From Platanthera guangdongensis (Eukaryota; Streptophyta; Magnoliopsida; Asparagales; Orchidaceae): DNA of 64,000 nucleotides. How positions within the stretch are numbered: the first letter of the stretch is position 1; every line of letters begins with the position of its first letter. The stretch lies in contig CM077161.1 of NCBI GenBank assembly GCA_039583875.1, forward strand, positions 66,159,885 through 66,223,884, given 5' to 3'. Of the stretch, positions 1,584 through 58,447 are shown in pieces. The notes below the pieces were generated by a model, which was not told the origin of the DNA, ran no database searches, and saw only the letters and a program-made list of their open reading frames with translations. Position numbers and translations under genes: made by a program.

Positions 1584-4062
1584 TGTAACATCCCATTTCC
1601 AACTAGACCCCTAGGAGTGGTTTTGTCCATGACTAGGTCATGACAAACCCTAGGAAGCCAGAAATGGGCCAAGAGATAGGAGACAAAATGTGGAAAATCA
1701 TCATGGTCTGCAAATAGTAGAACTCTGAACAATGGTTTAGGATGACCATGGGCTACACCTTAACCCCAAGACCCTACCACAACACCCCTAATACCTTGGA
1801 GGCCCATTAGAGCCAAAAGGACCCATTAGGGTCAACCCAAGAGGCCCAGTTGACCAAGGTCAACCCTAGCCCTAAATGGGTCAAACTAGCCTACTTAGGG
1901 TCAACTGACCTACTCCTAGCCTAGAGGACCCCACCTATGCCCTCCTAACCCTAAAGTGAGGTCAATGGGTTACTAAGGACACATTGGGGTCAGCCCTAGG
2001 GGCCAGGTTGACCCAAGTCAACTCAAGCCCCTAATCTGGTCAAAGTGCCCTTACTAAGGGTATGTGACCTCCAGAGGGCAGGGTAACCCTACATAACCCT
2101 ACCTAGACCCTAGGGGAATCCAATGGGTCACCCAGGACCCATAGGGGTCAACCCAATTGGTCATGTTGACCCAAGTCAACTCTAGCCCTAGATGGTCAAA
2201 ATGCCCTTGCCAAGGGACAGGAGACCACCAAGAGGCCCAACCAACCCTATCCAAGTAACCCTAGACCTTAGGGGAAGCCAATGGGCCACTGAAAACCCAA
2301 TGGGGTCAACCCAGATGGTCAAATTGGCCCAGGTCAACCCTCATTTAGGTCAAGTCAAACCTAGCCCAAAAAGGGCTAACCCAAGCCCAAGCCACTTCTC
2401 CCTTAGGCTAACCCCACCCTCATGACCATCATAATCAAGTGGGCTGCATTTAGCTTGTGAGGTTGACTAGTCAACCCGAGGTGACTAGGAGAGAGAAAGG
2501 AGCTCCCCTCCATGATAATGGAGGAGAGAGAAATTGAGGAAGAGGAAGGGGAAGTGGAAGGCCGGCCAAGGGAGGCTAACAGCCACCATTTATGGCTGCA
2601 ATCAACTCCTCTAGGGGAGAGGAGTTGATTCCAGCCGTTTCCCGGCCACCAAGGGATGGGTTCAGCCCCCCCTCCACTCTACCCGAGCCACACCTTTAAT
2701 GGTGTTAATGGTCATTGAAGAACCAGCCTCCCCTCTCCCCCATTTGCCATTTAAACACCATCAGGGGGCCAAGCGGATCACTTTAGAGCGTTTACCTGGA
2801 GGAGACGAGCCATTCCACTGTGCTGTTGCAGAAGCCGAGCGCCGCCGCCGTCGTCAATGGCATCCCGCCGCTCCTCTCGCATCCAGGCCGCCAGGAAGGT
2901 CCTCCTCCTCTCCTTAACTCGCGGGTAGATCTTAGGACTCTTAAGGTTTAAGTTTCGGGCTCAATTGAGCCCGATCAAATCCAGGATTCCTCATGGTTTC
3001 GGCAAGAATTCCTCTTGCTATAACCGCCGGAAAACTCCTCTCCGGCGGCAGAGCCGCCGCCTGGCGATAGCCACCACCTCAACGGAGGTGTTGGTGGCGG
3101 TGGCCGGCCGGGGAAGGGGCTGGATCGCCGGCGGCAAGGCTTGGAAATCGCTCCAGGCGGGACGAATCGCAGCCGTCGGCTCAACGAAGACGATGACCAG
3201 ATGCCGTTGATCCCTGCGCCAAGATTCGTGCTGCATCAGGATTAAACTATAGGAAATTAATTATATTTATTTCATTCTGTCACAATTTTGTCATTTAATG
3301 TTTTAAATATTTAAAAATAGTTAGAGGCTCTGTATGAGGAAATTATCAACACATGATTTGTATCCCTTTCTGTCTACTTTATTTTAAAATTGGTTTGAAC
3401 CAATTTAGGCTCCTGGTTTGATCAGGGCACCCATTTTGGTGGGACATACCCTTAGGGCTAGGCAGTCATTAAACTGAGTGCCCACACTTCATCCCTAGCC
3501 CAAATCAGTTGAAATTGTTATGGGGAGTCTATCCTAGCTAAACCTAGGGCCTGTCCAAAAATGGGAATTTTTGGAGAAACTATTTCTATAGTTTTTATAA
3601 ACATTTAATAATTATTAAATAAATTAAATAGGTGCCCTAAACACCTCAAAACCCTCCCAAATTTTGGTGAGTGGTCCCTGGGTTCAATTTAGGTATCTGT
3701 ATAAAATTTCATTTAATTTGGATGTGTTTTGAATAGGTTTTGACCCAACCCTAACTATACCTTAATATGGGCATTTTGGTCAAAAGGTGCACTTTTGATT
3801 TTGAGTGACCAAATCACCTCAACAGAGACTGAAATTTGGGTCACTGACTTGTTATAGCACTTGTCACCTCCCCATGGAATATGGGATAGAGAGGAATAGA
3901 TTTGCCCTAAGTTCCTAGGTCAAACCCTAAGGAGGGACCTTTTGGCCTTGTGAAGGGTATGAGTCCTAAACACCTTGGATGAACTCCAAATTTTGCAAGG
4001 AGGTTCCTAGGATATATAAAACCCTCTGTTAAAAATATTAGCAAATTGTGAAAATGGTAGGG
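1584..4062 (+). repeat. Element A 3' LTR, first part (interrupted by element B)
   Basis: The LTR begins TGTAACATCCC, the usual start of this chromovirus group, 266 bp after the pol stop. The sequence up to 4062 ends in TAGGG, the target duplication of element B, and the LTR resumes at 13820. From about 1750 to 2450 there are many irregular short repeats of the type GTCAACCC, CTAGCCCTA and GGGTCA. A GC-rich block lies at 2820-3220, and 3240-4062 is AT-rich with nothing recognised. The small ORFs here show no coding signature. Removing B gives an LTR of about 5.3 kb. Confidence 0.8.
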
Positions 4063-32720: not shown

Positions 32721-33256
32721 CTATGACAACGTCACTTTGCTTGATGGCCACCTGTTGGTCAAGATTATATACCCGGGGTTGTGCCTGGGATGCAGAGGAC
32801 TCTGCCACTGCCTTTCCCTTTTCTGTATAAGACACTACTGTCTTCTTCTCACCCTTAGGTGGTCCAACCCGACATTCACTAGCTATATGACCCACCTTAC
32901 CACAGGTATAGAAAGCACGAGGGTCTTGCCTAGAAGTTTATCCAGATGCAACACTCGAGGGAGCCTGTGAAGAAGACCTGGCTCTCTTGCCCCACTTCCT
33001 TCAGTAGTTTGACTTTCACGGGTGCGGCGCTGGAACTCAGGCTTTGTCACAGCCAAGTCCCTTTTGCCTTTTACCTGCTTCATGTCCTTCTCCAACGCAT
33101 GAGCCGTATCAACCAACGCTTGAAACCTCTGGTTCACCGAACTCGAGAGTAGGAATCTCAACTAATCCCGCAACCCTTCATAGAACCTATTGGTTTTACG
33201 CTCTTTGTCAGCAAAGATTGTTCCTGCATAGCGTCCCAACCTTGTAAACTAATGCA
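32721..33256 (-). pseudogene. Element C gag, 3' part
   Basis: It continues gag after the G insertion: TNRFYEGLRD, LRFLLSSSVNQRFQALVDTAHALEKDMKQVKGKRDLAVTK (split here for length: LRFLLSSSVN at about 33160), a basic stretch shifted in frame near 33010, and a knuckle remnant where the first Cys pair is altered (plus-strand region about 32885-32915). It ends with QPRVYNLDQQVAIKQSDVV at the intron-like joint. Stops are near 33245 and 33165, plus at least one frameshift. Confidence 0.8.
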
Positions 33257-34163
33257 AGTAGTGAAAGATATGGTACCTAAACACCTAGAGGGGGGGTGAA
33301 TAGGTGACCAAAACCTTTTTTGACTTTTGTTTGGCAGCACAACAGTTTTTCACTGATTACTACAGCTAACAGCAAATACAGAAATTAAGCATTCAATTCA
33401 CAGCACAGCACAGCACAGAAGACACACTAATTTTATAGTGGTTCCCCAATCTTTGGGTACATCCACTTTCCCCCTTCGCCTATCTAGCAGTGTACTAGAT
33501 TCGGCCAAACTTCTCCACTAGCTCAGAACCCAACAAGGTTCCTACCTCAGGCCCAAAGCCTTACACTCAGCCAAAAGGCCTACACTCAGCCACCCAGGCC
33601 TACACTCAGCCAATCAAGGCTTACACTCAGCCAATTAAAGGCCTACACTCAGAGTTCTTCAACTCCTACACTCAGGCACCAAGCCCTACCCTCAGCCTTT
33701 ATAAAATAGGCTTACAATCACTCAGATCCAATGGATCTTACAAGTTTAAAATAGAAATTACAAATGCTAACTCTACAACTCAGAAAGGATGAGAGGAGTT
33801 GAGAGTTTCTTGAAGAGTTCTTGGAAGAACTCAGCTTGATCCAAACTGACTTAGCTTTCTTCAAAGCTTCTTGAGTAGAACTGAATTAGTCTGAATCTAC
33901 TGCAGTTGATCCTTGATCTCTGCTTCTTGAAATCCAGATGACTCTGAATTGTTCTTCTCAGCCTTAGTTCCAAAGACTGAATCCTTGGTTGGAGCTCTCT
34001 CTCTCCAACTACTTAGATCTGCAGTTGGACTGCCTGATCTTCTTGTGTTGATCCTCTATGTATCACTTCTTGATTTAATCTGATCAACCACTTCAGTTAT
34101 TCTCACAACATGTAATGATAATGAACAACCTTCTATATATATTTTTCTGTAAACTATGGGGGC

Positions 34164-34172
34164 CTATTTATA
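34164..34172 (-). promoter_or_regulatory. TATA box of element G 3' LTR
   Basis: TATAAATAG on the minus strand, about 155 bp downstream (element sense) of the last GTGTCGACAC copy and 0.9 kb before the LTR end. The identical site in the 5' LTR is at 45145-45153, and it would drive the genomic RNA. Confidence 0.7.
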
Positions 34173-34305
34173 GGCTTCCTTCATGGTAACCGGCTGGTCC
34201 GGTTCATAACAGACTTCTGACTTCTCTAACAGTTGATGTAGACCGGCTGGATCGGCAGCTGTCATGTCAACCAGTCACTTCTTGAAATTCTCTAACTGTC
34301 AGTTA

Positions 34306-35182
34306 GTGTCGAGACTTTCTGTTCTTAAGTGTCGACACTTATAGACCAAGTGTCGACACATGTTGTGTAAGTGTCGACACAAGTCTACAAGGTGTCGACA
34401 CAATTCCTTGTATGTCTCGACACAGTTTCTTCTGCATGTGTCGACGCTGAAATTGAGTGTCGACACAAGTACTTGCACTTCATTCTTTATCTGTATTCTT
34501 CTAAGTGTCGACACATCTCCTTTGTGTCGACACATCTTCATGTGTTGAAACTGTCAAGTGTCGACACTGCTTCTTGGTGTCGACACAAGTCTTCAATCTT
34601 GTTTCTTCAGTTGAGTGTCGACACATTCCTTTAGTGTCGACACTTGTACTTAGAATATTTTACAACTTTTCTGTTCTTTGCTAAGTGTCGACACAGCTCC
34701 TTGTGTCGACACTTTCTTCAAGTGTTGAGTCTTCTGGTTATGTGTCGACACATTGTGCTGAGTGTCGACACAATCTTCAAGTGTTGACTCCTTTGAGTGT
34801 GTGTCGACACATTGTGTTGAGTGTCGACACATTCTTCATATTTTGACTCTGCTGATTGAGTGTCGACACATTGTGTTGAGTGTCGACACTTGTACTTAGT
34901 CTCTGCAGAATTTTGCTGAGTGTCGACACAACTCCAAGTATCGACACTTTCTGATGTAGACTCAGCTCTTCTAGGTGTCGACACTTCTGCCAAGTGTCGA
35001 CACAACTTTTCTGCATTCTTCTACACAGAGTGTCGACACAACTCCAAGTGTCGACACTTTCTGACTGGTGTCGACACTTCTTCCCAGGTGTCGACATAAT
35101 GACTCCAAGTGTCGACACTGCTTGTCTGGGTGTCGACACAAGCTTTCTCAAGTGTCGACACTTTCCCTCTGGGTGTCGACAT
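34306..35182. repeat. GTGTCGACAC palindrome array in element G 3' LTR
   Basis: I count 28 exact copies between 34329 and 35161, plus about six one-base variants, giving one exact copy per 30 bp. The spacing is irregular (about 10-60 bp) and the flanks are mostly T-rich or C/T-rich. The 5' LTR copy (45287-46163) has about four more exact copies, because four of the LTR differences destroy a motif in this LTR. Confidence 0.95.
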
Positions 35183-35327
35183 ATGGACTTAGAAATTTTC
35201 AGCTTCAGTCCAGTGTATAACTAACCTGCACAAGTAACTCAAACAAACATCAAATACATTCTGATGTATATCATTGAGTTAGGTGAGGCTTCTTCAAATC
35301 AGGTACATTTGACCAATGTACCCAACA

Positions 35328-35350
35328 ATCTCCCCCTATTTGGAGAAGTC
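35328..35350 (-). other. Element G polypurine tract
   Basis: On the minus strand AAATAGGGGGAGAT lies directly before the LTR start TGTTGGG, as expected for the plus-strand primer. From 35351 to 35624 the sequence is AT-rich with no gene seen. Confidence 0.85.
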
Positions 35351-35624
35351 ATAACCCTTAGTCAATGATATACACCACTCATAATTAAAAATTACAAAAT
35401 GATGTAAAATATATAAATGACAACAGGGTAAACTTGAACATGTAATAAAGCACACATGTATACTTATTAAACATTGCAGAACAATTAAGAAACACACATA
35501 TTTCAGAACATTCATACTATATTTATCATATACTGTTCCAATAATGTTCCTTATACATTTTCAATGAAGTATTACAATGTTTTTCACTCAACAGATTACA
35601 ACAAGCATCAAGTTAATTCCTAAT

Positions 35625-36212
35625 CTAGTGCTGATCAGGTTCTTTAATAACAATGCCTTTTCCAGCTTTAACTTGAGCTTTCACAGCAGCAGCAGCAGCA
35701 GGCTCAGCTTCAGCAGTCTTCTTCCATTTAGAGTCCTTCTTCTTCTGTTCTTCAGCCTTGATCTTTTGTCTTTCAAAATAATGATAGGGCTTAGGAAAGT
35801 ACTTGCTAGGCTCCACAGCTGTTGGAGGTAGCTTTCCTAACTTAGCCTTCCTTCTATATTGGACAATTGCTTCCTGCCTACTCTCATGCTTTCTCCATTC
35901 AGCCTCTGAGAACCACTTGTTCCTTTCATGGGCATTGTCCTTGGCTGCTTTCCAGGCTGTAAGAATTATGTTCCTAGAAGTAGGGCTCCACTGTTCAAAA
36001 TCTGGCTTTTGCTCAGCAATTTCCCTAAACTTCTTCTTTGACAGCCTAGTTTCTTCTTCTTTGTCCAAAGCCTCTTGCATTGCAGCTGTGATAGGTTGAA
36101 CAACCTTTTCCAGAATAACATTTGGCTTGCCAGCAGGTGGACTATACATTGTGCTTATATCTGCATGAATCATGTCAAAGTCTGGAGGTGGATAGATTAC
36201 ATCAGCCACTGC
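35625..36212 (-). CDS. Element G ORF3 extension (195 codons after an in-frame TAA)
   Basis: The frame is the same as ORF3 and directly follows its stop (TAA at 36213-36215); it has no ATG near its start (first codons GCA GTG). The protein is basic and helical in look (RLSKKKFREIAEQKPDFEQW, TAWKAAKDNAHERNKWF, EAIVQYRRKAKLGKLPP), with Lys/Glu-rich and Ala-rich runs near the end. It has no signal peptide and no membrane segment. It is probably the C-terminal part of ORF3, made either by stop readthrough or only in copies without the stop. A CAA-to-TAA mutation would give the same picture. Confidence 0.65.
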   Translation of the reverse strand, partial: AVADVIYPPPDFDMIHADISTMYSPPAGKPNVILEKVVQPITAAMQEALDKEEETRLSKKKFREIAEQKPDFEQWSPTSRNIILTAWKAAKDNAHERNKWFSEAEWRKHESRQEAIVQYRRKAKLGKLPPTAVEPSKYFPKPYHYFERQKIKAEEQKKKDSKWKKTAEAEPAAAAAVKAQVKAGKGIVIKEPDQH

Positions 36213-38405
36213 TTATTGCTCACCTCCAAGATATGTTCCTTGAATGCCAGAGTCAGCTACATTGTCATCATCACAAAGGGGAGGATAGCCCAGTGTAGCC
36301 CTGATGGAATTGGATATCCATTTTGCATGTTCAGAACTGGCCTTGACTAACACTCTCTCCCCCTTTATGACTTCTTGGGCCACATGATCTCTCACATCAT
36401 CTTTCTGGAATCTGATTTGGCCATCCAAATACCTTATGCCCTCTTTAAAGAAAGGTCTAAGCTTTGTAAGCTGTTCTGAAATGACCTTCTGTGAGTCTTT
36501 AATGGCAGTCTTTACAGCAGCAATCTCTGCTTGAAAGAGTTTATCAAAATCAGCTTTGGCAGCAGCAGAGGAAGTTGAAGGTTCATCTGACTTATTCTTG
36601 AGTTCAGTGACTATTGCATTGTGAGATGCAGTCAAATTATCATTCATCCTCAACTGATTCTCCAGCACATAGCCTTGCTTGAGTGCAATATCTTCTACCT
36701 TCTCTTTGATGATTTCTTGATGTTTAGCCAGATAGACCACAGCATTACCACCCTTGTGGAAGCATTCATTCATTTCCTTCTTATTCATGTTCATTTCAAA
36801 CCTGATTGATTTGATATCTTGAGCTAGATCAAATTGTAGAGATTTTTGGCCCTCATCAATATATTTCTCTATGGCCCTCCTTTGCTCATCCATCTTTACT
36901 TGCATTGCAACCATTAGGCTTGTATAATCAGTTGATGGAGCTTGTTGAACCAGTGAGTGTTGAGCAACAGTTTGGAGAGCCTTCTTATAGCTTTGGCTTC
37001 TTCTTTTGAAAACAAAGAACTTCTTTTTCTTAGCTTCCTCAGCTGCATCATCTTCAGATTCTGATGTACTGGCAATATCCACCCTATCCTTAGGGCTGGA
37101 TGGTTGTTCAGTGTGCACATCTTGTGCTTTCTCTATATCTAGCCTTATAGGCTCTACTTGAATATCCAAATTCTCCCCCTCAGCAGCAGCATCCTTCTCT
37201 GTATCAGCAGCATTCTTTTCCATATCAAAATCATCCTGATCTAAATTCAGAAAAAGATCTTCCATGGTGTATTCTGCTGGAGACTGTGCAGGAGATGTTC
37301 TGGTTTCATCAGCTACAACAGATGTGTCTTGGAGAACAACATCTGGTTCTTGAGTTGCTGGCTGATTTTGCTGATGATCATCAGACAAATCAGAATTTAT
37401 GATAGAAAAATTCAAAGTATTAAGGTCAACAAGTACCTCTTGAATGAGGAGGGTGGCTTGCTCACTCTCCAGTGTAGATGGTTCTGCTACACCTGGAAGC
37501 TCCCCCTGAATGTCAGCTGGCTCCTGAGGAGCAGGTGACTTTTCTGCAGCTTTATCCATTGGACTATCAGGAGTGAAGACCACATGTTCTTCACTGCCTG
37601 AGCTGCTGGATGGCTCTTGAGGTACAGCAGCAGTCTTCCTCTTCTTCCTGGGAGGAGAGTCTTTCTTAGAAGTTTGTTTCTCAGGGGTGGTCAATTCCTT
37701 TGACACCAGCACCCTTTCCCATCTAGAGAATATTCTTGAGTCCATCTTCCTCATATGATTGATCTTAGTTCCTGCAGCAGTGCTCATTACCTCTGGAATT
37801 GATCCAGCCAGGTAGAGACTTAGTATCCTGCCCAGATTGGGCTTCTTCAGGCTTTCCTTCACTTTTTCATAAACCACCATTGACCAGTCTGTTTTCAGAT
37901 GGAAGATGATTCTGGTCATGACTTCAAACATGGAGGCAGACACCCTGTCATGTCCTCCTGGCTTGCTTAGTATTACCTTGCCCACTATTTCTGACAAGAA
38001 CTTGCCTTGATTATTCATACCTTTTCTGTTAAAGACTGATCCCACCTTCATCTTTGGATCCAGTCCACACCAAGTAAGAGCTTCCCTGGTCTTAGAAGCA
38101 GTTACTTCCTCTTCATCTTGAACTTTAGGTAGCTGAAGTACCTTTCTTAAAGACTTGGGTGAAATCTTGACCTTGGTGCCATGCACCCTTGACTTAATCC
38201 TGTAGCCTGAGTCATCTACAGACGCGCCAGAAAGGAATTCAATGACTTCCTTCTTCCATATTTTCGTTGGTTCTGAAACCAAGAACTCCAACCCTGAATT
38301 GGCAATTAGGGTTATTACTGATTTGATTTCTTGGTCGCTGTCGTCAAATGCGCCTCGCACAAGCTCATAGCCTTCGTTTACGTTCTCTTCCAGCTTGGGA
38401 GCCAT
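36213..38405 (-). CDS. Element G ORF3: extra protein of 730 codons, unknown function, probably nuclear
   Basis: The start ATG at 38405 (MAPKLEENVNEG) was chosen because it follows a TATA box (38503-38511) by about 100 bp; the frame is open further up to 38606, but that part is the palindrome array read as codons. The first 230 residues (VKISPKSLRKVLQLPKVQDE, GKFLSEIVGKVILSKPGGHD, MFEVMTRIIFHLKTDWSM) resemble the plant-mobile or putative-plant-transposon type domains often carried by plant LTR elements. About residue 253 is PPRKKRKT, a nuclear-localisation-like motif. Then follow a long acidic Ser/Pro/Glu region, a second basic patch (KKKKFFVFKRR) and a predicted coiled coil (about residues 560-680). 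There is no signal peptide or membrane helix, unlike an envelope. It ends at a TAA followed in frame by 195 more codons. Function unknown. Confidence 0.8.
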   Translation of the reverse strand: MAPKLEENVNEGYELVRGAFDDSDQEIKSVITLIANSGLEFLVSEPTKIWKKEVIEFLSGASVDDSGYRIKSRVHGTKVKISPKSLRKVLQLPKVQDEEEVTASKTREALTWCGLDPKMKVGSVFNRKGMNNQGKFLSEIVGKVILSKPGGHDRVSASMFEVMTRIIFHLKTDWSMVVYEKVKESLKKPNLGRILSLYLAGSIPEVMSTAAGTKINHMRKMDSRIFSRWERVLVSKELTTPEKQTSKKDSPPRKKRKTAAVPQEPSSSSGSEEHVVFTPDSPMDKAAEKSPAPQEPADIQGELPGVAEPSTLESEQATLLIQEVLVDLNTLNFSIINSDLSDDHQQNQPATQEPDVVLQDTSVVADETRTSPAQSPAEYTMEDLFLNLDQDDFDMEKNAADTEKDAAAEGENLDIQVEPIRLDIEKAQDVHTEQPSSPKDRVDIASTSESEDDAAEEAKKKKFFVFKRRSQSYKKALQTVAQHSLVQQAPSTDYTSLMVAMQVKMDEQRRAIEKYIDEGQKSLQFDLAQDIKSIRFEMNMNKKEMNECFHKGGNAVVYLAKHQEIIKEKVEDIALKQGYVLENQLRMNDNLTASHNAIVTELKNKSDEPSTSSAAAKADFDKLFQAEIAAVKTAIKDSQKVISEQLTKLRPFFKEGIRYLDGQIRFQKDDVRDHVAQEVIKGERVLVKASSEHAKWISNSIRATLGYPPLCDDDNVADSGIQGTYLGGEQ

Positions 38406-38445
38406 TAGGGTTTTGAGAATTAGTCTTGAGATGAGAGAAATGTCG

Positions 38446-38890
38446 ACACAAGAGTTTAGGTCTCGAAACTTTGAAAGCGTGTCGACAATCAAAGACAGAA
38501 CCCTATTTATACCTTTCTTGTTTGAAGACGAACAGGCGGGATGAATTTCTAATGATGTGTCGACACTGTCAATAAGTGTCGACACTGACTTATAATGTCT
38601 CGACACTCATGTGTCGACACAAATTTAGTCAACAGATTTTATGTGTCGACACTTGGTTAAGTGTCGACACCACTATACTCGATATGTGTCGAGACTTTAC
38701 TTAGAAAAATTCTTAGTAAAACTTAAGTGTCGACACTTTATTGGATGTGTCGACACCTACTCGACATGTGTCGACACTAACATTCTGAAGTGTCGACACT
38801 AACTTCCTAGATGTGTCGACACCATTTTCCTGAAGTGTCGACACTTACTATTCTGTGTCGACATAGACTTGTCTATGTGTCGACACCTTT
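38446..38890. repeat. Internal GTGTCGACAC array of element G, between pol and ORF3
   Basis: There are twelve exact copies between 38557 and 38886 (one per 27 bp), plus about five variants, two of which lie downstream of the TATA box. The motif is the same as in the LTRs. The flanks (AATGTGT, TTAAGTGT) are not a long copy of the LTR sequence, so only the motif and not a whole LTR segment appears to be shared. Confidence 0.9.
38503..38511 (-). promoter_or_regulatory. TATA box upstream of element G ORF3
   Basis: TATAAATAG followed by GG on the minus strand, the same nine to ten bases as the LTR TATA box of this element. It lies between the palindrome array (38557-38886) and the ORF3 ATG (38405). 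It suggests a separate internal promoter. Confidence 0.6.
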
Positions 38891-38918
38891 TTACTTAGCC
38901 AATTTTTGTTCTGTATAC

Positions 38919-41900
38919 TCAATCTAAGTTTATCATACCTAGTTCAATTTTGAACTTATTAAACTTAGCTTCTTCTAAGGGCTTAGTAAACATATCAGCT
39001 ATCTGATTATCTGTTTTAACATATTCAAGTGCAATATCATTTCTTTCTACATGCTCCCTAAGAAAGTGATATTTTATCTCAATATGTTTAGTTCTACTAT
39101 GAGATACAGGGTTATTAGCTATGGAAATAGCACTTGTAGAATCACAATAAAGTGGAGTTCTACTTACCTGACATCCATAGTCTTCTAGCTGATGTTGAAT
39201 CCACAGAAGTTGAGCACAGCAACTTCCTGCAGCTACATATTCTGACTCAGCTGTGGAGATGGCCACACTGGTTTGCTTCTTACTACTCCATGAAATGAGT
39301 CTTCCACCTAGGAATTGACAGGATCCAGTTGTGCTCTTTCTATCTTCTTTGCATCCTGCAAAGTCTGCATCTGAATAGCCTGTTAGATCAAAATCTCCAT
39401 TCCTAGGGTACCAGAGGCCTAGATAAGGTGTGCCCTTTAGATATCTCAAGATTCTCTTGACTGCAGTCAAGTGAGATTCTTTGGGGCAGGCTTGATACCT
39501 GGCACAAACACATGTAGCATACATAATGTCAGGCCTACTTGCAGTCAAGTATAGTAGGGAGCCAACTATCCCTCTATACAAGGTTTCATCCACAGGTTTC
39601 CCTGCATCATCCTTGCTTAGAGACATACTTGACCCCATAGGAGTCTTCATGGTACTGGAGGAATCCATACCATATTTCCTTATGAGTTCTAGGGTGAACT
39701 TTGACTGACATATGGACAAGCCACTTTCAGTCTGTTTAACTTGGAGACCCAAGAAAAACTTCAGTTCTCCCATACTACTCATTTCAAATTGACTTTGCAT
39801 AAGCTTTGCAAACTTTTTGCAAAGGCTACTTTCAGTAGACCCAAATATAATGTCATCTACATATATTTGGACAAGTATTACTTTGCCTCTAGATTCCCTA
39901 AGGAATAGAGTCTTATCTATTTTCCCCCTTGTGAACTTGTTCTCAATGAGGAAACTAGATAGGGTTTCATACCAAGCTATAGGAGTTTGCTTTAACCCAT
40001 ACAATGCTTTTCTAAGTCTATAGACATAATGTGGAAGAGTAGGATCAACAAAACCTGAAGGCTGCTCCACATATACTTCTTCTTTTAAATTACCATTAAG
40101 GAATGCTGACTTTACATCCATTTGGTATACTTTGAATCCTTGGTAGGTTGCATAGGCCAAGAACATCCTGATGGCTTCCAGTCTGGCTACTGGAGCAAAG
40201 GTTTGATCAAAATCAATACCTTCTTCTTGCCTATATCCTTTTGCAACCAGTCTTGCCTTATTCTTAATGATGACTCCTTGTTCATCTAACTTGTTTCTGT
40301 AGATCCACTTTGTTCCTATCACATTGTGATCTTTAGGCTTAGGAACTAAGTCCCAAACCTTGCACCTCTTGAACTGGTTTAGCTCTTCCTGCATAGCTTC
40401 AGTCCACTGTGGATCTTGTATTGCTTCTTCAAATTTCTTTGGTTCTATTTGAGACAGAAAACTTGAATATACTGCAGCATTCTGATTTCTGCTCCTTGTC
40501 TGAACACCTTGTCTTGGATCTCCAATGATCAGCTCCACTGGATGATCTCTTAGATGCCTGTTGGCTGGAGGCATCCTTACTTCTGGTTGTACTTCTTCAG
40601 CATCTTCATCATGCTGAGTTCCTTGAACTTCTTCAGCTCCTGGTACATGTAGTTCTCCCCCTGGACATAAGCCATCTTCTTCTACTTGCTGTCTTGCAGC
40701 AGGTACATCTTCTATGGTTAGCTTGTCCATCTTCTTAATAAGACCTGAAGGGCTGCACACACTACTAGACAACTCATTGTTAATTAGTTGTGACTCATCA
40801 AAAACTACATGCACAGATTCCTCTACAACTTGTGTAGTCAAGTTGTAGACTCTATAAGCCTTACTATTATTGCTGTACCCAACAAACACTCCCTCTTGGG
40901 ACTTGGCAGCAAACTTAGTTAAGTAAGACTTCCCATTGTTAAGTATGAAGCATTTACAACCAAAGATCCTAAAATAGGACAGATTTGGTTTCCTGCCTTT
41001 CACTACTTCATAGGGGGTCTTGTTTAACCTTTTAGTGATGGTAGCCCTATTTATCACATGGCATGCAGTGTTAACTGCTTCAGCCCAGAAATATTCTGGC
41101 AGTGATGAATCACTTAATAGGGTTCTACCAGCCTCTATCAAGGTCCTATTTTTCCGTTCAGCAATGCCATTTTGCTGAGGTGTTCTAGGTGAAGAGAATT
41201 CTTGAAATATCCCATAGTCTTCACACAGCTTTGTCATGCTTTCAGACTGAAACTCAGTACCATGGTCACTTCTAATTTTGACCACTGTACAGTTCAATTC
41301 ATTCTGAATTTGCTTAACAAAACTATAGAAGACACTAGGTGTTTCAGATTTCTGCTTTAAGAAGAACACCCAGGAAAACCTTGAGTAGTCATCAATAACT
41401 ACAAAGGTGTAGACCTTCCTACCTAAGCTGTGAACTGGCATTGGACCAAATAGATCCATATGCAAGAGGTATAAACACCTCACAGCATCCTTGTTGTCAA
41501 TGCTTCTAAAGGTGGATTTAGTCTGCTTGCCCTTTTGACAAGCTGAGCAAATGCCATCTTTGACACACTTAACTTGAGGACCATTCCTCACTAACTCTTT
41601 ACTAAAGAGTTTGTCAATAGTCTTGTAATTAAGATGAGCAAGCCTCTTGTGCCACTTGACACATTGAGAGACTGTCTCATCAGCTACAAGACAAACTGGA
41701 GAACTATTGTTCTCAACCATAATGTCTAAACAATAGACATTTCTCTTCCTATAACCTGTCAAAATGATCTTTTGATCACTTGACCTCTTGATATGACAAC
41801 CATTTTTAGCAAATGAGATGTCATACCCTACATCACTTAATTGACTTATACTAATGAGGTTATGTTTCAAACCTTTAACATAAGCCACTTGAGTAATGGT

Positions 41901-42092
41901 AACAAGGTTAGAAGAAATGTTACCAAACCCTTTGATGATTCCTTTTTCAGAACCACCAAAGGTCACCTTTGGACCATTTTTGATTGGGATGTAGTCCTTC
42001 AGTAGTCCCCTAGTTCCAGTCATGTGTCTGGAACATCCACTATCCAAGTACCATGTAGGGGTATGGCCACTTGGATTTTCCTGCAAAACAAA
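38919..42092 (-). CDS. Element G pol: protease, integrase, reverse transcriptase, RNase H
   Basis: An open frame of about 1055 codons, same frame as gag, following the gag TAA. Seen in order: protease ([14 protein letters not shown], active-site DSG near residue 16), GAG-pre-integrase zinc finger ([18 protein letters not shown]), integrase DDE core ([46 protein letters not shown]), a linker, copia RT ([32 protein letters not shown], catalytic YVDDIIFGS), and RNase H ([50 protein letters not shown]). It ends MINLD at 38919. The motif DVKSAFLNG with VYVEQPSGF and the extra 3' ORF fit the Sirevirus lineage. No lesion is seen. Confidence 0.95.
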
Positions 42093-44129
42093 TTAATGAA
42101 CCTTAGAACCCAAAGTAAACTTGGGTCCTTGGTGATTGTTAGTTTGCAATTTGACATAGCTACCTGCTGTCTTTCCAACAGGTAACTTGCTACACAACTT
42201 GGCACTGGCATTGTGCCAACAATCCAAAGCAAAGTGGCCAACCTTGCCACAGCACCAACATTCAAATTTGTTGTACCTTTGCTTAGGTTCTGACTTAGCT
42301 GTCTTAACTACAGCAGTCTTGTTGAATGTTGGGGCTTTGCCCTTGGACTTGGACTGATCCTGAACAGTCCTAGCTGGATTAACAAAACCCAGTCCAGTCT
42401 TTCCTTTATGATGAACAAAATCATCAATCAAGGGTAGCACTGATTTAGGTTTTGAAAACCTAGCTACTAGCTCTTTCTCCTTCTGAAGATTAATCTCCAG
42501 TTTCTTAATTTGATCATTTTTAAATGTAATAGTTCCCATCTGAATCACTGTAATATGTTTTAGCCTGGCTACCTCATTAAGTTTTTGATCATAATTCTTC
42601 TCATAATCTATTGCAGCTGCCTTGAGATCAGCAATTTCCTTGGCCAAATTTTTGGCTAGGGTCTTGCTTTTCTTATAGGCTTGCAATAGTACTTGATATT
42701 CATCTAGGAGTTGATGAATATCTCCCTCAGACTCAGATATATTCTCATCACTTGATGAAGAATAATCTGACTCTGAACTAGAACTGAAATCAGAACTTTG
42801 AGTTAAACCTTGTACCTGACTGGGTCCTGGCTGCTCCAGGTTTTTGGTACTTTCAGTCAAAGCCATCAGTCCTTGGCTTTGACAGTCTTCTTGCTCATAG
42901 ATAGATTCCATGATCTGCATAAACTCTTCTTTTTCAGCAAATAGCCCAATATAGGCTTCAGCATCTGTCTCAGTGTCTGAAGAAGACATATCTGAAAGAG
43001 TCTTCTCATTCTTTGCAACAAAGGACTTCTCCTTCTTTCCTTTGAAGTGTGTTTTCTTTTTGTCACTGGATTCTTTCCTTCTTTCAGGACAGTCTGCAAT
43101 AACATGGCCCTGTCTATTGCAGCAGTAACAAATTATCTTGGATCCAGTTGCCTTACTAGTCTTGGTCCTTTTCTTGTCCTTCTTTGAAGGCTTCTTTTCC
43201 TGATACTGAACCTCTTTCCCTTTGGAAGATGAAGGTCTAGACCTCCACTGTTTCTTCTTAAGGAACTTCTGAAAATGTCTGGTGAATGCAGCAAAGTCTT
43301 CATCACTTTCACTGCTTGTAGATTTTGTACTTTCTGACTCTTCAGATTCTGATTCAACTACCTCAGGAGGAGGAGTTGATGACTTGGTCCTGCTCTTTCT
43401 GGGTACATCTGACTTAAAGGCAACAGTCTTTTCTCTGTATTCAGTCCTTGTTGACTTTTCTTCTTCTTTTCTCACTGACAATTGCATCTCATAAGATAAC
43501 AACTTGCCAAAAAGTGTGGGAGGAGGAATTTCTCCCAACTTTGCCATTTCTCTGATGGCACAGATCTTGGTGTCCCAGTCTTTGGTGAGGGACCTTAAGA
43601 ATTTATCATTCAACTCATAGTTTGTGAACTCTCTTCCATATGACATGAGTTCATTTACAATTCTATAAAATTTCTTGTAGCATTCAGTGATGCTATCTCC
43701 TCTTCCTTGCCTAAAGCTCTCATATTCTTGATTAAGCAAGGACTTCCTATCTTGCCTTACTTCTTCAGAACCTTCCATATAGACAATGAGGGTGTCCCAC
43801 ATTTCTTTTGCAGTTTTACAGTGAATAAGGTTCTGGAAGGTGGCATCATCAATTGCACTAACTATTATATTCTGTGCTCTTTTGTCCATGGTTGCTAGGA
43901 TAATCTCATCCTTGGTCATTTCAGAGAAATCCTTTGGAGTCCTCTGATTTGCATCCAATACTGAAATCTTCATGGGCACATATGGCCCTTCTTTGACTGT
44001 GATGTATATCCTAGGGTCAGAGGCTTCCATAAAAAGCCTAACCCTCTCTTTCCAGATCCCAAAGATCTCTTTTCTGCATATAGGTAGTTTCATTGAACCC
44101 AACTCCTTATGATTCTCTGAAGAACCCAT
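42093..44129 (-). CDS. Element G gag (two zinc knuckles)
   Basis: The start ATG is at 44129, 113 nt after the 5' LTR. The 678 codons show the copia gag N-terminus (EIFGIWKERVRLFMEASDPR), the UBN2-type region (SLLNQEYESFRQGRGDSITE, LFGKLLSYEMQL), a CCHC knuckle CYCCNRQGHVIADC near residue 333, an acidic Ser-rich middle, a coiled coil (about residues 460-560), and a second CCHC knuckle CWCCGKVGHFALDC near residue 622. Gag forms the particle and binds RNA. The frame closes with TAA at 42093-42095, and pol follows in the same frame. In Sireviruses such as SIRE1, stop-codon suppression is the known way to make downstream products. Confidence 0.95.
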   Translation of the reverse strand: MGSSENHKELGSMKLPICRKEIFGIWKERVRLFMEASDPRIYITVKEGPYVPMKISVLDANQRTPKDFSEMTKDEIILATMDKRAQNIIVSAIDDATFQNLIHCKTAKEMWDTLIVYMEGSEEVRQDRKSLLNQEYESFRQGRGDSITECYKKFYRIVNELMSYGREFTNYELNDKFLRSLTKDWDTKICAIREMAKLGEIPPPTLFGKLLSYEMQLSVRKEEEKSTRTEYREKTVAFKSDVPRKSRTKSSTPPPEVVESESEESESTKSTSSESDEDFAAFTRHFQKFLKKKQWRSRPSSSKGKEVQYQEKKPSKKDKKRTKTSKATGSKIICYCCNRQGHVIADCPERRKESSDKKKTHFKGKKEKSFVAKNEKTLSDMSSSDTETDAEAYIGLFAEKEEFMQIMESIYEQEDCQSQGLMALTESTKNLEQPGPSQVQGLTQSSDFSSSSESDYSSSSDENISESEGDIHQLLDEYQVLLQAYKKSKTLAKNLAKEIADLKAAAIDYEKNYDQKLNEVARLKHITVIQMGTITFKNDQIKKLEINLQKEKELVARFSKPKSVLPLIDDFVHHKGKTGLGFVNPARTVQDQSKSKGKAPTFNKTAVVKTAKSEPKQRYNKFECWCCGKVGHFALDCWHNASAKLCSKLPVGKTAGSYVKLQTNNHQGPKFTLGSKVH

Positions 44130-44242
44130 GTTCTTGATTTTCTTGAAACTGTTTCCTGTTTCCTGACTTATACTGAATCTGCCAAACTGGATCTCCTCAG
44201 ACAGTTAGTCCTGATTTTGAGGAACCTCCCTCTGATACCACT
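44130..44242 (-). other. Element G leader with PBS
   Basis: Directly after the 5' LTR the minus strand reads AGTGGTATCAGAGGGAGG. TGGTATCAGAG matches the usual initiator Met-tRNA primer site. The rest is a short leader to the gag ATG at 44129. Confidence 0.85.
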
Positions 44243-46308
44243 TGAAAGATATGGTACCTAAACACCTAGAGGGGGGGTGAATAGGTGACCAAAACCTTTT
44301 TTGACTTTTGTTTGGCAGCACAACAGTTTTTCACTGATTACTACAGCTAACAGCAAATACAGAAATTAAGCATTCAATTCACAGCACAGCACAGCACAGA
44401 AGACACACTAATTTTATAGTGGTTCCCCAATCTTTGGGTACATCCACTTTCCCCCTTCGCCTATCTAGCAGTGTACTAGATTCGGCCAAACTTCTCCACT
44501 AGCTCAGAACCCAACAAGGTTCCTACCTCAGGCCCAAAGCCTTACACTCAGCCAAAAGGCCTACACTCAGCCACCCAGGCCTACACTCAGCCAATCAAGG
44601 CTTACACTCAGCCAATTAAAGGCCTACACTCAGAGTTCTTCAACTCCTACACTCAGGCACCAAGCCCTACCCTCAGCCTTTATAAAATAGGCTTACAATC
44701 ACTCAGATCCAATGGATCTTACAAGTTTAAAATAGAAATTACAAATGCTAACTCTACAACTCAGAAAGGATGAGAGGAGTTGAGAGTTTCTTGAAGAGTT
44801 CTTGGAAGAACTCAGCTTGATCCAAACTGACTTAGCTTTCTTCAAAGCTTCTTGAGTAGAACTGAATTAGTCTGAATCTACTGCAGTTGATCCTTGATCT
44901 CTGCTTCTTGAAATCCAGATGACTCTGAATTGTTCTTCTCAGCCTTAGTTCCAAAGACTGAATCCTTGGTTGGAGCTCTCTCTCTCCAACTACTTAGATC
45001 TGTAGTTGGACTGCCTGATCTTCTTGTGTTGATCCTCTATGTATCACTTCTTGATTTAATCTGATCAACCACTTCAGTTATTCTCACAACATGTAATGAT
45101 AATGAACAACCTTCTATATATATTTTTCTGTAAACTATGGGGGCCTATTTATAGGCTTCCTTCATGGTAACCGGCTGGTCCGGTTCATAACAGACTTCTG
45201 ACTTCTCTAACAGTTGATGTAGACCGGCTGGATCGGCAGCTGTCATGTCAACCAGTCACTTCTTGAAATTCTCTAACTGTCAGTTAGTGTCGAGACTTTC
45301 TGTTCTTAAGTGTCGACACTTATAGACCAAGTGTCGACACATGTTGTGTAAGTGTCGACACAAGTCTACAAGGTGTCGACACAATTCCTTGTATGTCTCG
45401 ACACAGTTTCTTCTGCATGTGTCGACACTGAAATTGAGTGTCGACACAAGTACTTGCACTTCATTCTTTATCTGTATTCTTCTAAGTGTCGACACATCTC
45501 CTTTGTGTCGACACATCTTCATGTGTTGAAACTGTCAAGTGTCGACACTGCTTCTTGGTGTCGACACAAGTCTTCAATCTTGTTTCTTCAGTTGAGTGTC
45601 GACACATTCCTTTAGTGTCGACACTTGTACTTAGAATATTTTACAACTTTTCTGTTCTTTGCTAAGTGTCGACACAGCTCCTTGTGTCGACACTTTCTTC
45701 AAGTGTTGAGTCTTCTGGTTATGTGTCGACACATTGTGCTGAGTGTCGACACAATCTTCAAGTGTTGACTCCTTTGAGTGTGTGTCGACACATTGTGTTG
45801 AGTGTCGACACATTCTTCATATTTTGACTCTGCTGATTGAGTGTCGACACATTGTGTTGAGTGTCGACACTTGTACTTAGTCTCTGCAGAATTTTGCTGA
45901 GTGTCGACACAACTCCAAGTGTCGACACTTTCTGATGTAGACTCAGCTCTTCTAGGTGTCGACACTTCTGCCAAGTGTCGACACAACTTTTCTGCATTCT
46001 TCTACACAGAGTGTCGACACAACTCCAAGTGTCGACACTTTCTGACTGGTGTCGACACTTCTTCCCAGGTGTCGACACAATGACTCCCAGTGTCGACACT
46101 GCTTGTCTGGGTGTCGACACAAGCTTTCTCAAGTGTCGACACTTTCCCTCTGGGTGTCGACACATGGACTTAGAAATTTTCAGCTTCAGTCCAGTGTATA
46201 ACTAACCTGCACAAGTAACTCAAACAAACATCAAATACATTCTGATGTATATCATTGAGTTAGGTGAGGCTTCTTCAAATCAGGTACATTTGACCAATGT
46301 ACCCAACA
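44243..46308 (-). repeat. Element G 5' LTR
   Basis: The 2066-bp partner of 33262-35327, offset by exactly 10,981 bp. About six differences were seen and no indel. It contains the palindrome array at about 45287-46163 and the TATA box at 45145-45153. Confidence 0.95.
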
Positions 46309-46313
46309 AGTAG

Positions 46314-46881
46314 GTATCAACACAACTTCCCCCTAAGTTAGATGCTGGAACTCATTCAACATAGCTATGCGCTGAGCCGATGGCAAATGCTTTGCCAAAA
46401 ATAGTCTCGAAAACTCCTCGATTGAGACTTCCGTCAGTTGTCTGCCTGCCAAGTGGTGCAGCTCTATCTCATCCCACCATAGTCGAGCCTCTCCTTCTAG
46501 CAAGAAGGTGGCCAAGGTGACTTTCTGTTCTTCCTCCGTCCTTATTGCCGTCAATATTCTCTTGACGCACGATAACCAATCCTCCGCTTGCGTTGGGGAT
46601 CCTGCCCCCATAAACATAGGAGGATTGAAGCTCATAAATTGCCTCAGTTGTCATTCCGCTGCTCAGGGATCTTCAACAGCCGCAACAGGTTCGGCCTCAC
46701 ACCCATATGTTCTGGCACCACCGCAGGCCGCGCCTGCCCAGTCGGTTGTGCTTGGATCATAGCAAATAGCGTCTCAGCAACTAAACATACTGTCTTTGCA
46801 GATGGAGGAGGTGTAGGCACCTCAGTTGGTGTCATACTCTCATCAGAACACTGGGGCTCATACTACCTCGTACCACTTCGT
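46314..46881 (-). pseudogene. Element C gag, 5' part
   Basis: On the minus strand it begins after TGTATAG with GTGACACG, as in B and F. It then shows VPTPPPSAKTVCLVAETLFA, a frameshifted linker, and the capsid region (SFNPPMFMGAGSPTQAEDWL, LLEGEARLWWDEIELHHLAG, EFSRLFLAKHLPSAQRIA). A TAA follows NEFQHLT at about 46333. The reading resumes at 33256 on the other side of element G, with the five target bases repeated. Confidence 0.85.
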
Positions 46882-54804: not shown

Positions 54805-56032
54805 TGTTGGAACCCTAGTTCTGATTTAGGTAAAGAACACTATTAAGAATATTAGAATGACCCAACATGTATAATCATGGGTCATAGGACCTTTTCCAGG
54901 ACAGGTCATTCAGAAGAACTCTCCAGAATTGCTGGAAGAAATCTGAACAACAGTTAAGACAAAGTTAGAGAATCAGCTCGACGATCGTCGAACGCAGTTC
55001 GACGAACGACGAACTCAGGTCGACGATTGGTGGACAACACTTCCTCAGCTCGACAAAATTAGCAAGACTGTTTCTCAGCTCGACGAAGTAGAAACAGAGC
55101 TTGACGAACTGCAAGCTCCGGTCGACGAACGCAGACAAGATATTCAGCTCGACGAATCTAGCTGAGTTCGACGAATGTCGAACTCAGGTCGACGATTGAT
55201 GAACTCGATGAAAGTTCAGGTCGACGATTTCTGAGCAATCAGTAATAGTTGGCAGAATTAATTGAGGATTAATTACAGTCAACATTCCCAGTGAAAATAG
55301 TCGTTCAAACGGACAGTTACAGTAGAATTAAGTCCGGATCAATTTCCAAAGCATTTACTACACTCGAGAATTTTTCTTCCGCCATCAAGACTAAGGAATT
55401 CAAATACAGAGTTTGATATACAAAAGAGAGTACAGTGAACAGCACGACAGAAAAGGTTTTCTACAGAGAAGGAGGAACTCTGCAGCATCAATAAAAATAA
55501 TCATCAGAGTTCTTCATCTGCTCCAGGAGCTTTCAAGAGACAACTAATCAATATCAGTCTAAGAAGCCTGTGGGAGACATCTTCACTGTGAAGGCCTATC
55601 ACCCTACAGCAAGGCTTCCAGTTTTTCCCTGAACAAATCAATATCTCAGGGGGAGCCTTTGATAATATCATATCCACAAGTCTTCTCTCTGATTGTTGAC
55701 AGAGAAGACACCATCACTCTTTTCCCCCCTCCTGTACAAAGGGTTGTCATCTCCCTTCAAAAGTGATTCCCGGTTGCAAGTCTCCTTCCAAAAGACTTGA
55801 GTTGGTTTTTGGGGACCTGATCAAAACTCATTGGTGTCAGGCACCTGATCAAAAATCTGAGTGGATTCCTACTAGGGTGGTAGAAGAGTGGACTACCCAG
55901 ATTTGGGGAACCACTATAAAATCCTTGTGTCTCTTCTGTGTTGCTTGATCTGCCTCTTTGTTTATTTTGTTTGTGTTTTTTATTTTGTGATGTGATTAAG
56001 CTCTAGTATTTTGTTAAGATCTGTCACTTTCA
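54805..56032 (+). repeat. Element E 5' LTR
   Basis: A TCGACGAA cluster (54975-55230) with both orientations, for example CTCGACGATCGTCGAA, lies in the first third. The last 450 bp match element X's LTR (GGTGGTAGAAGAGTGGA, GGGGAACCACTATAAAA). Confidence 0.95.
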
Positions 56033-57222
56033 ATTGGTATCAAAGCGAGGTTGGTTAAAATACCACACCTTAGGTTGGTTAACTGGTTGTACAGGCTAAC
56101 ACCTGAACCACAAAGATCCTTTGACAGATCTTAAGAATCTTTTGAGTTTTATCATGGCACAAATTGCAGATTTTTCAAGCACCAGACTGCTCATGTGCAA
56201 TCTAGATATGCTTGCACTATGGAAGACAAGGATTAGATTTTATATGGACTCCGTTGATGAAAACATCTTCAATCTATTTTGTCAGGTCCAGCTCCACCTC
56301 AGCAAACAATAAGTCCAGATGATGTTCCATCATCCCAATGGACAGATGCCCAGCAAAAGATGAAGATTGCTGATGCATAAGCAATAAACATTCTGGCACA
56401 ATCAATGTCTGATGACATTTTTGAAGAACTTGCTGAATGTTCATCTGCAAAAGAGATGTGGGACTCCTTTACAGCTTTGGCTGCTGGATCAGCAACAGAA
56501 AGACCACTTCATGCTAAATCCTGTAGTGACTCAGATTCTTTCTCCTGTTCAACAAAGGATGAAGAAGAAGCAAGTGCAAAAGAATTTTGCATAATGGCAA
56601 TAGATACTTCTCTCTCAGCAGCTATGCTGAAGAATCTGAAGAATCAGAGTGTGAATAAGATGAAGAGGATCAGGTCATTTCTTCCCTTGACTCTCCTTCA
56701 GCTAAATTTAACACTGATTTCAGATTATCACATGAAAATCATTAGAAAATCTTAGTTCAAAATATTTCGTCGAACGGAGATCGACGACATCAATACTATT
56801 CGTCGAACTCAGATCGACGAACTATGAACAAAGATTTTTGCTTTGAACTATTTAGGGCTCTGTGCTCTACGAAACAAATTTAATTCATCGAACTCAGATC
56901 AACGAAAATATTTTTCGTCGAACTCAGAAATTCAAAACAGAAATTTTTATTCTTTTATTTCTGACCATTATAAAAGAGAACCAGGACCCAAGGTTATCTG
57001 GGTCCAGAACTCCTAACATCTCCTTGCAGGAAAAGAATTCCGTCCAGCAAATATACAGGATATCAGTGGCTGAATAATTTGTGCAAGGCTATGCAAATAG
57101 AGGGAGTTTGGCTAGTTGCAGTAGATTAGTTGTTGTATTATTTCTTTTGTATTGTTTTTTTTTGCTTTGCATTTTTATTTGCTTTTGATGTAAATAGTGT
57201 CCTTACCCAAATAGGGGGAGAT
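56033..57222 (+). pseudogene. Element E internal region: gag remnant, pol deleted
   Basis: A PBS, then ATG at 56154 with a copia gag start (MLALWKTRIRFYMDSVDENI). After that come frameshifts, QSMSDDIFEELAECSSAKEMWDS in another frame (56402-56480), a jump to the acidic Ser-rich part (about 56520-56610), the TCGACGAA-rich block (56765-56930), and the gag end GPKVIWVQNS with TAA at about 57014. Only a few codons of the protease side follow before unrelated T-rich sequence and the polypurine tract. Confidence 0.85.
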
Positions 57223-58447
57223 TGTTGGAACCCTAGTTCTGATTTGGGTAAAGAACACTATTAGGAATATTAGATTGACCCAACATGTATAGTAATGGGT
57301 CATCGGACCTTTTCCAGGACAGGTCATTCAGAAGAACTCTCCGGAATTGCTGAAAGAAATCTGAACAATAGTTAAGACAAAGTCAGAGAATCAGCTCGAC
57401 GATCGTCGAACGCAATTCGACGAACGACGAACTCAGGTCGACGATTGGTGGACAACACTTGCTCAGCTCGACAAAATTAGCAAGACAGTTTCTCAGCTCG
57501 ACGAAGTAGAAACTGAGCTCGATGAACTGCAAGCTCCGGTCGACGAACGCATACAAGATATTCAGCTCGACGAATCTAGCTGAGTTCGACGAATGTCGAA
57601 CTCAGGTCGACAATTGATGAACTCGACGAAAGTTCAGGTCGACGATTTCTGAGCAATCAGTAACAGTTGGCAGAATTAATTGAGGATTAATTACAGTCAA
57701 CATTCCCAGTGAAAATAGCCATTCAAACAGACAGTTACAGTAGAATTAAGTCTGGATCAATTTCCAAAGCATTTACTACACTCAGGAATGTTTCTTCCGC
57801 CATCAAGACTAAGGAATTCAAATACAGAGTTTGATATACAGAAGAGAGTACAGTGAACAGTACGACAGAAAAGGTTTTCTACAGAAAAGGAGGAACTCGC
57901 AGCATCAATAAAAATAATCATCAGGGTTATTCATCTGCTCCAGGGGCTTTCAAGAGACAACTAATCAATATCAGTCTAAGAAGTATGCGAGAGACATCTT
58001 CACTGTGAAGGCATATCACCCTGCAGCAAGGCTTTCAGTTTTTCCCTGAACAAATCAATATCTCAGGGGGAGCCTTTGATAATATCATACCCACAAGTCT
58101 TCTCTCTGATTGTTGACAGAGAAGACACCATCACTATTTTCCCCCTCTTGTACAAAGGGTTGTCATCTCCCTTCAAAAGTGATTCCTGGTTGCAAGTCTC
58201 CTTTCAAAAGACTTGAGTTGGTTTTTGGGGACCTGATCAAAACCCATTGGTGTCAGGCACCTGATCAAAAATCTGAGTGGATTCCTACCAGGGTGGTAGA
58301 AGAGTGGACTACCCAGATTTGGGGAACCACTATAAAATCCTTGTGTCTCTTCTGTGTTGCTTAATCTGCCTCTTTGTTTATTTTTTTGTGTTTTTTATTT
58401 TGTGTTGTGATTAAGCTCTAGTATTTTATTAAGATCTATCACTTTCA
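57223..58447 (+). repeat. Element E 3' LTR
   Basis: Partner of 54805-56032, with a few small indels and several percent substitutions. It is directly followed by the second TGTTC and the continuation of F's LTR. Confidence 0.95.

Follow-up and report, generated by a model that had tools for sequence, protein, structure and literature searches.

How a retrotransposon expresses a gene that it carries behind pol is the question raised by a stretch of 64,000 nucleotides (hereafter the window) from the orchid Platanthera guangdongensis (GenBank assembly GCA_039583875.1, contig CM077161.1, positions 66,159,885 to 66,223,884 of the forward strand). The window contains element G, a Sirevirus-type Ty1/copia retrotransposon of 13,047 bp (33262..46308, minus strand), which was delimited by the ends of its long terminal repeats (LTRs), the target site duplication, the polypurine tract (PPT) and the primer binding site (PBS). 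Between pol and the 3′ LTR it carries a third open reading frame (ORF3; 36213..38405, minus strand, with the ATG at 38405), which is separated from pol by a spacer of 513 bp. For the gene at this position in Sireviruses, named ENV, the expression route has been debated since an internal promoter was proposed in 2002 (Peterson-Burch and Voytas, 2002, as cited in PMC2829016). Our analysis suggests that the spacer is probably an internal RNA polymerase II promoter for ORF3, whose upstream palindrome array is shared with the LTR. The observations behind this reading are the sequence anatomy of the spacer, its constant spacing and conservation, the matching of LTR and spacer motifs, and the confinement of CpG.

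The spacer contains 12 exact copies of the palindrome GTGTCGACAC, about 21 bp apart, within 330 bp (38557..38886, minus strand; observed/expected CpG ratio 1.26), followed by the TATA box TATAAATAG (38511-38503) and the start codon of ORF3. The two LTRs, each of 2066 bp, are arranged in the same way, with 32 exact palindromes and a TATA box at 45153 in the 5′ LTR (44243..46308, minus strand) and 28 exact palindromes and a TATA box at 34172 in the 3′ LTR (33262..35327, minus strand). The original prediction, which was made from the letters of this DNA, had claimed the same order at both places and a similar motif density, and both statements were borne out (32 copies in 854 bp of the 5′ LTR, 12 in 330 bp of the spacer). 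The location of the element on the minus strand and the stop of ORF3 after 730 codons, behind which a further 195 are open, go beyond what it stated. All 72 exact copies of GTGTCGACAC in the window belong to element G, compared to 0.08 expected from shuffled sequences, and the window outside the element contains no copy with up to one mismatch. In addition, the spacer has five imperfect copies with one mismatch and one with two; of these, three are found past the TATA box (38488, 38469, 38449). The prediction had further held that the bases around the palindromes are not a copied LTR segment. This stands insofar as no clear copy was found: the best match between the inter-palindrome linkers of spacer and LTR was 0.517, compared to 0.456 ± 0.032 after shuffling, and on this comparison the idea that the spacer simply duplicates part of an LTR was rejected. 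Because 5 of the 200 shuffles reached the best match, a weak resemblance of the spacer linkers to the LTR may nevertheless exist.

Relatives of element G were sought in the host genome (4.25 Gb). Palindrome pairs of the form GTGTCGACACN{5,15}GTGTCGACAC occurred 971,003 times, compared to once for the reversed pattern, and exact PPT/3′ LTR junctions 64,732 times, compared to once for a control; the motif pair of a different element, L016, was found 125,190 times and its control not at all. As a positional sample we took the first 20 PPT junctions on one contig (C1), each as an 8-kb stretch. An ORF3-type frame, in many cases broken by stops, was present in 15 of the 20 loci (14 detected by tblastn, and L013 by its likeness to L017) and was not found in three (L019, L020, L027). 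The remaining two, L014 and L015, were left unclassed and dropped, although six exact copies of GTGTCGACAC are present in the LTR of the former and two in the linker of the latter.

To score the match between spacer and LTR, the spacer positions covered by 8-mers occurring at least four times in an LTR were counted. In 12 of the 15 sampled ORF3 elements the spacer repeats matched the motif of their own LTR, and three distinct motif groups were found. The own-LTR score was 98 for G, 45-101 for the seven sampled loci of the G family, 79 for L016 (motif TACTCGAGTA), 32 and 10 for L022 and L009 (motif TCGACGAT), and 24 and 21 for L017 and L013 (motif TCGACGAA). Between the groups (G family, L016, and L009/L022/L017/L013) the scores were 0-4, apart from three G-type spacers that reached 8-9 with the L016 set, and control segments of 500 bp from the end of pol and from the start of ORF3 scored 0 and once 1. 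The one-base variants TCGACGAT and TCGACGAA were not separated by this matrix, as the spacer of L009 scored 12 with the LTR of L013, 20 with that of L022 and 10 with its own. In a more distant group, family E, the own-LTR scores were 2 (L028), 7 (L026) and 0 (L012). L012 had been considered as a counter-example, with an LTR motif unlike its spacer, and was dropped; by eye, its LTR appears to be interrupted after about 235 bp by another LTR element, so that this locus cannot be scored. Among the loci without ORF3, L019 has an LTR repeat and a motif score of 1 in its 415-bp linker, and L020 and L027, with 14 bp between pol and PPT, are uninformative on the spacer motif.

Tandem repeats of this type can be expanded by slippage, and the arrays might be passive and functionless. 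We regard this as highly improbable. In an alignment of the spacers of G and the seven sampled family loci, the pairwise identity was 95.3% in palindrome columns and 78.2% in the other columns, with the palindrome mask taken from G itself, a choice that favours palindrome conservation. Moreover, the array in G is restricted to the LTRs and the region before ORF3, and the pol and ORF3 controls gave 0-1. In two families, adjacent palindromes follow each other at about 21 bp in LTR and spacer alike (Rayleigh p 3e-3 to 3e-8, neighbours being not fully independent).

The TATA box of the proposed internal promoter (38503..38511, minus strand) is identical in all eight aligned loci of the family. With a transcription start about 30 bp past this box, the proposed leader would extend over 38406..38481 (minus strand); it is free of upstream ATGs and contains palindrome-like copies, a pyrimidine tract and AAACCCTA ahead of the ORF3 start codon. 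In the whole genome, 24,682 modules were found in which an array is followed by TATAAATA, with a gap of 30-60 bp allowed, compared to 5 for reversed controls. Among 100 listed modules the gap was 44 bp in 3, 45 bp in 24, 46 bp in 64 and 47 bp in 9. We then inspected 12 further modules that had been picked for divergence, and in which array and TATA box were present by selection. ORF3 followed downstream in all 12, and in 11 of them the first ATG past the TATA box was the ORF3 start, at +105 to +111; the twelfth, L038, has an ATG ahead of this start, at +62, in the frame of ORF3. In the 10 elements checked, out of 16 with a spacer, no ATG occurred from 30 bp past the TATA box to the ORF3 start, compared to 2-9 before the TATA box.

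Several points weigh against an internal promoter or restrict what the counts can tell. The modules share their spacing through the kinship of the copies, so that the 24,682 cases are not independent observations, and the mask bias mentioned above is a further restriction. The G family has clear TATAAATA boxes, and in L017 and L013 no more than a TATATCTA-like sequence is present. The family E spacers of L026 and L028 hold only 3-5 copies of a half-motif. An intact ORF3 without a spacer array, which the original prediction had named as an observation that would speak against it, was thus encountered in part, namely in the distant L028 (open ORF3 of 693 aa, three half-motif copies), and was not seen in the G family (G, the seven sampled loci, and the 12 modules preselected for array and TATA box). 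The first-ATG geometry also fails in L028, which was not among the 10 elements checked, because ATGs precede its ORF3, unless an apparent intron is removed. Finally, strong splice-acceptor-like sequences (TTTGCAG|G or CTTGCAG|G) are located 5-12 nt before the ORF3 ATG in L009, L022, L017 and L013, and element G has a weaker one, CTCAAG, with a pyrimidine tract. Splicing of a long RNA is therefore possible. ORF3 would then be expressed by the route reported for Bagy2, with the array serving another role. We consider this unlikely. The tract in G also fits the pyrimidine patch of plant core promoters, and splicing leaves both the TATA box and the CpG island unexplained. In family E, a donor-acceptor pair forming an apparent short intron (AG|GTAACC ... 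TAG|ATC) was noted by eye within the leader, just 5′ of the ORF3 ATG (L028 approximately 2850-2947, L012 approximately 2905-3006, sense coordinates); such an intron would require an upstream start site within the spacer.

A further argument for the internal promoter comes from the distribution of CpG. Element G contains 114 CpGs, 72 of them in exact palindromes. In gag and pol (38919-44129) there is one CpG in 5,211 bp, an observed/expected ratio of 0.005, compared to 0.677 for the window outside the element, whereas CAG/CTG sites in the same region are not depleted (195 found, 121 expected). On the spacer side, a CpG island (38223..38886, minus strand) comprises the array, the TATA box, the leader and the first ~183 bp of ORF3; it has 32 CpGs, located between 38882 and 38224, of which nine lie in the ORF3 part, and from its end to the PPT no CpG occurs in 2,884 bp. 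The same pattern was seen in all seven sampled loci of the G family, with observed/expected ratios of 0.95-1.15 in the spacer, 0.42-1.01 in the first 200 bp of ORF3, 0-0.12 from +200 to +600, and 0-0.22 at the end of the reverse transcriptase (RT) region. In L016 the trend was the same, pol being richer in CpG (0.5). The spacers of L009, L022, L013 and L017 are CpG-rich with a less clean boundary, L022 having no CpG in the first 200 bp of ORF3, and family E has retained more CpG throughout. As a separate observation, no CpG was found in the relatives L018, L024, L010 and L011 over the 1,200 bp sampled upstream of the end of pol. The CpGs kept in non-palindromic leader and coding bases are best explained if the promoter is active and, presumably, little methylated in the germline. 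An almost CpG-free body that is flanked by two CpG-rich promoter regions yields a simple prediction for methylation maps, and it fits the report, as far as its available text goes, that sunflower SIRE elements lose CG, not CHG, methylation across their central part (PMC12844716, 2026). The interpretation given in the original prediction is supported in part, namely for a promoter of ORF3 built on the motif of the LTR, by these CpG data together with the constant TATA spacing, the first-ATG geometry and the agreement of spacer and LTR motifs.

The arrays might alternatively act at the level of RNA, as hairpins of the genomic RNA serving small RNAs, packaging or dimerisation. The spacer array indeed folds with -146.5 kcal/mol, compared to -84.8 ± 5.4 kcal/mol for 100 shuffles (z = -11.3), and palindromes of maize Sireviruses attract small RNAs (Bousios 2016, as cited in PMC10760457). 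The constant distance to the TATA box, the first-ATG geometry and the non-palindromic CpGs in leader and coding sequence are left unexplained by such a role, which we judge to be improbable. The strong hairpins and the small-RNA hot spots in maize suggest that the arrays may also be liabilities for the element.

Assuming an internal promoter in the spacer, what might read the array? The spacer promoter would be laid out like the LTR promoter, with the palindrome array of the respective family upstream of a TATA box. As the upstream array is shared, a common reader would co-regulate genomic RNA and ORF3: a protein recognising the palindrome would switch both together and would keep the LTR and spacer regions low in CpG methylation, either directly or through transcription. 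Beyond the anatomy, we infer in this model the start near 38480, the hypomethylation, and the existence and identity of the reader.

The reader might be a host transcription factor, with different families recruiting different factors, which we consider a serious candidate with somewhat less than an even chance. The position of the arrays ahead of the TATA box and the spacing of about 21 bp, close to two helical turns, in LTR and spacer of two families are consistent with it, as are the LTR array that L019 retains without ORF3 and the PLACE results of Bousios et al. (2010; PMC2829016), which were mainly sites of stress factors. However, several motifs in one genome would demand several factors or promiscuous binding.

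By analogy to the VANC proteins of VANDAL elements, ORF3 itself could read the palindrome, and would then, in a sequence-specific manner, activate both the LTR and its own promoter or counteract their silencing. This is a tentative possibility. ORF3 (730 codons to the first stop) has a weak N-terminal PF20167 domain, basic patches and, in a low-confidence model, a helical C-terminal half; the frame past the stop (35625..36212, minus strand, 195 codons) resembles the C-terminal part of Platanthera homologues. The match to PF20167 (Transposase_32) amounted to 24 bits, below the gathering cutoff of 45 bits, and to 20.8-34.2 bits in six other ORF3s, with no hit in L028; the same domain is present in the precomputed annotation of the Platanthera homologues P0005, P0006 and P0012. 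Pfam gave no known DNA-binding domain in ORF3, and AlphaFold models were poor, with predicted local distance difference test (pLDDT) scores of 37 and 43, both of which argue against a reader role. In favour of such a role are basic patches resembling nuclear localisation signals (251-257 and 459-469, the second also in those Platanthera homologues that are long enough) and the lack of a hydrophobic stretch of sufficient length for a membrane helix. The transmembrane segment of an envelope protein was thus not found, by a crude hydropathy test in which the Kyte-Doolittle mean over 19 residues peaked at 1.26 in P0001 and at 0.87 in P0002. ORF3 is under purifying selection, with ratios of nonsynonymous to synonymous substitution rates (dN/dS) of 0.04-0.16 in the 15 of 21 comparisons where they were computable, synonymous sites being saturated in the other six.

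Two further observations favour an ORF3 reader, namely the distinct motif groups that are each common to LTR and spacer while the N-domains are related (20-51% identity between families), and the confinement of CpG to the two arrays and the promoter parts downstream of them. On the other hand, LTR repeats occur without ORF3 in L019 and in four elements of PMC2829016, the N-terminus within the G family diverges down to 53% identity with a constant motif, and the close motifs TCGACGAT and TCGACGAA are not distinguished. The wider proposal that ORF3 of Sireviruses is a family-specific palindrome reader, holding open the LTR promoter and its own promoter in a positive loop, seems rather doubtful to us. 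If true, these two promoter regions would be almost the only CpG targets of an element whose body is nearly CpG-free. It would also bring VANC-like self-recognition to LTR retrotransposons and account for the presence of repeats at two places, the LTR and the region upstream of ENV, as well as for their differences from family to family.

The element is very abundant. A genome search with ORF3 gave 123,804 first-look candidates, of which 61 were scored, all 94-100% identical and located on contigs C1-C21; 55 of these have an open frame of at least 900 aa, five have one stop in the matched part, and the copy in the window has 797 aa. A protein search with an eight-row alignment (A2) returned nine proteins, all from Platanthera. 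In the pairs of G with L018 and L024, the synonymous divergence (dS) was 0.24-0.67 in ORF3 and 0.08-0.13 in the RT, with spacer and RT 97-98% identical, and the identity along ORF3, taken per 100 bp, fluctuated within 0.74-0.98, a patchwork such as recombination between subfamilies would leave.

By its sequence, element G is a Ty1/copia element with Sirevirus hallmarks, five of which were tested as given in the available text of PMC2829016 and were all found. The PPT octamer AGGGGGAG, expected 10 bp before the 3′ LTR and followed by AT/TG, is present at 35337-35328 as AGGGGGAGAT|TGTTGG, the terminal PPT AGGGGGAGAT (35328..35337, minus strand) adjoining the 3′ LTR. Multiple PPTs are seen as five octamer copies, at 35337 (terminal), 36364, 37180 and 37507 (in ORF3), and 40662 (in pol). 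The PBS at the 5′ LTR junction, expected as CA/ATTGG (or AGTGG) TATCAGAGC, reads CA|AGTGGTATCAGAGG, with a different last base. An inverted repeat at the PPT/3′ LTR junction was recognised by eye, its left arm ending at the PPT and its right arm beginning 28 bp into the LTR, and the C-rich integrase signal near the 3′ end of the LTR is TTCACCCCCCCTCTAGGTG. The element is flanked by a 5-bp target duplication, CTACT. It has a gag of 678 aa (42093..44129, minus strand; Retrotran_gag_2), compared to about 660 aa in Sireviruses, with CCHC knuckles visible in the sequence and a zf-CCHC score of 18.6 bits, compared to the Pfam cutoff of 20.8. The pol region (38919..42086, minus strand) encodes integrase, RT and RNase H (rve, RVT_2). 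Gag and pol share one frame with a TAA between them (42060-42110), and the splice-acceptor-like TTTGTTTTGCAG follows close behind.

The two LTRs differ at six positions, which at a substitution rate of 1.3e-8 per site per year roughly corresponds to a young insertion of about 0.1 million years. Four of the six differences (46163, 46078, 45928 and 45428, compared to the 3′ LTR) are within palindromes, which make up about 15% of the LTR; at all four the intact copy is that of the 5′ LTR, and three are of the C-to-T type, outside CpG. A search of 33200-46400 against Rfam at gathering thresholds gave no match. Elsewhere in the window, at 54805-58401, there is a direct repeat with a period of about 2.4 kb and two copies that are about 95% alike.

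There is a precedent for this arrangement. Bousios et al. (2010; PMC2829016, from the part of the paper available) described palindromic repeats in 13 of 21 Sireviruses. The nine of these that carry ENV had linker copies as well, 77 of 79 being located upstream of ENV, and the four without ENV (OPIE-2, PREM-2, Osr8, Tnd-1) had none in the linker; at least six other ENV-carrying elements lacked the repeats and had CpG islands at the same place. In that study, CpG islands coincided with both arrays and an internal ENV promoter was favoured, with none conclusively identified. Because of this pairing, the array pattern in G is of a kind already published in 2010; what is added here is a candidate core promoter for ORF3, now placed at base level and present in tens of thousands of copies. 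MASiVEdb (PMC3414828, available text) already names an internal promoter among the expression routes of ENV-like genes, which lowers the novelty of the idea. In the titles and abstract openings found, a TATA-bearing ENV promoter of Sireviruses was not reported, most subscription papers lying outside the search, and of the listed papers that matched the letters of the palindrome none looked, by title or abstract opening, like work on plant retrotransposons.

G resembles the Sirevirus RM elements of PMC2829016, as available, in its high-copy palindrome upstream of the LTR TATA box and before the ENV-position gene, and in CpG islands at both places. A TATA box is seen at constant distance before ORF3, at a position for which that study did not conclusively identify an internal promoter, and CpG is nearly absent from the rest of G. 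The RM core CGG-CCG is not found in GTGTCGACAC, which has the core TCGA, Tnd-1 being the published exception, and three of the extra PPT octamers are inside ORF3 and one in pol instead of being clustered after the ENV-position gene. SIRE1 agrees with G in genus and gene position; its ENV-like protein is made by stop-codon suppression (cited in PMC2829016), whereas in G array and TATA box lie in a spacer of 513 bp. Grande also carries an extra gene between pol and 3′ LTR (PMC7264820), for which an own promoter and a nuclear product were reported (Gomez-Orte, 2013), but this gene is antisense to pol, and the available part of PMC7264820 mentions no palindrome array in the Grande LTR. VANDAL is a DNA transposon with experimental evidence for VANC activity (PMC10398659, available text), and ORF3 of G is known from sequence alone. 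The likeness between them consists in an accessory protein, family-specific arrays of short motifs in noncoding DNA, and related proteins that go with different motifs, such as VANC21 and VANC6 with their different tandem arrays in noncoding regions, a parallel that is consistent with a role of ORF3 as reader.

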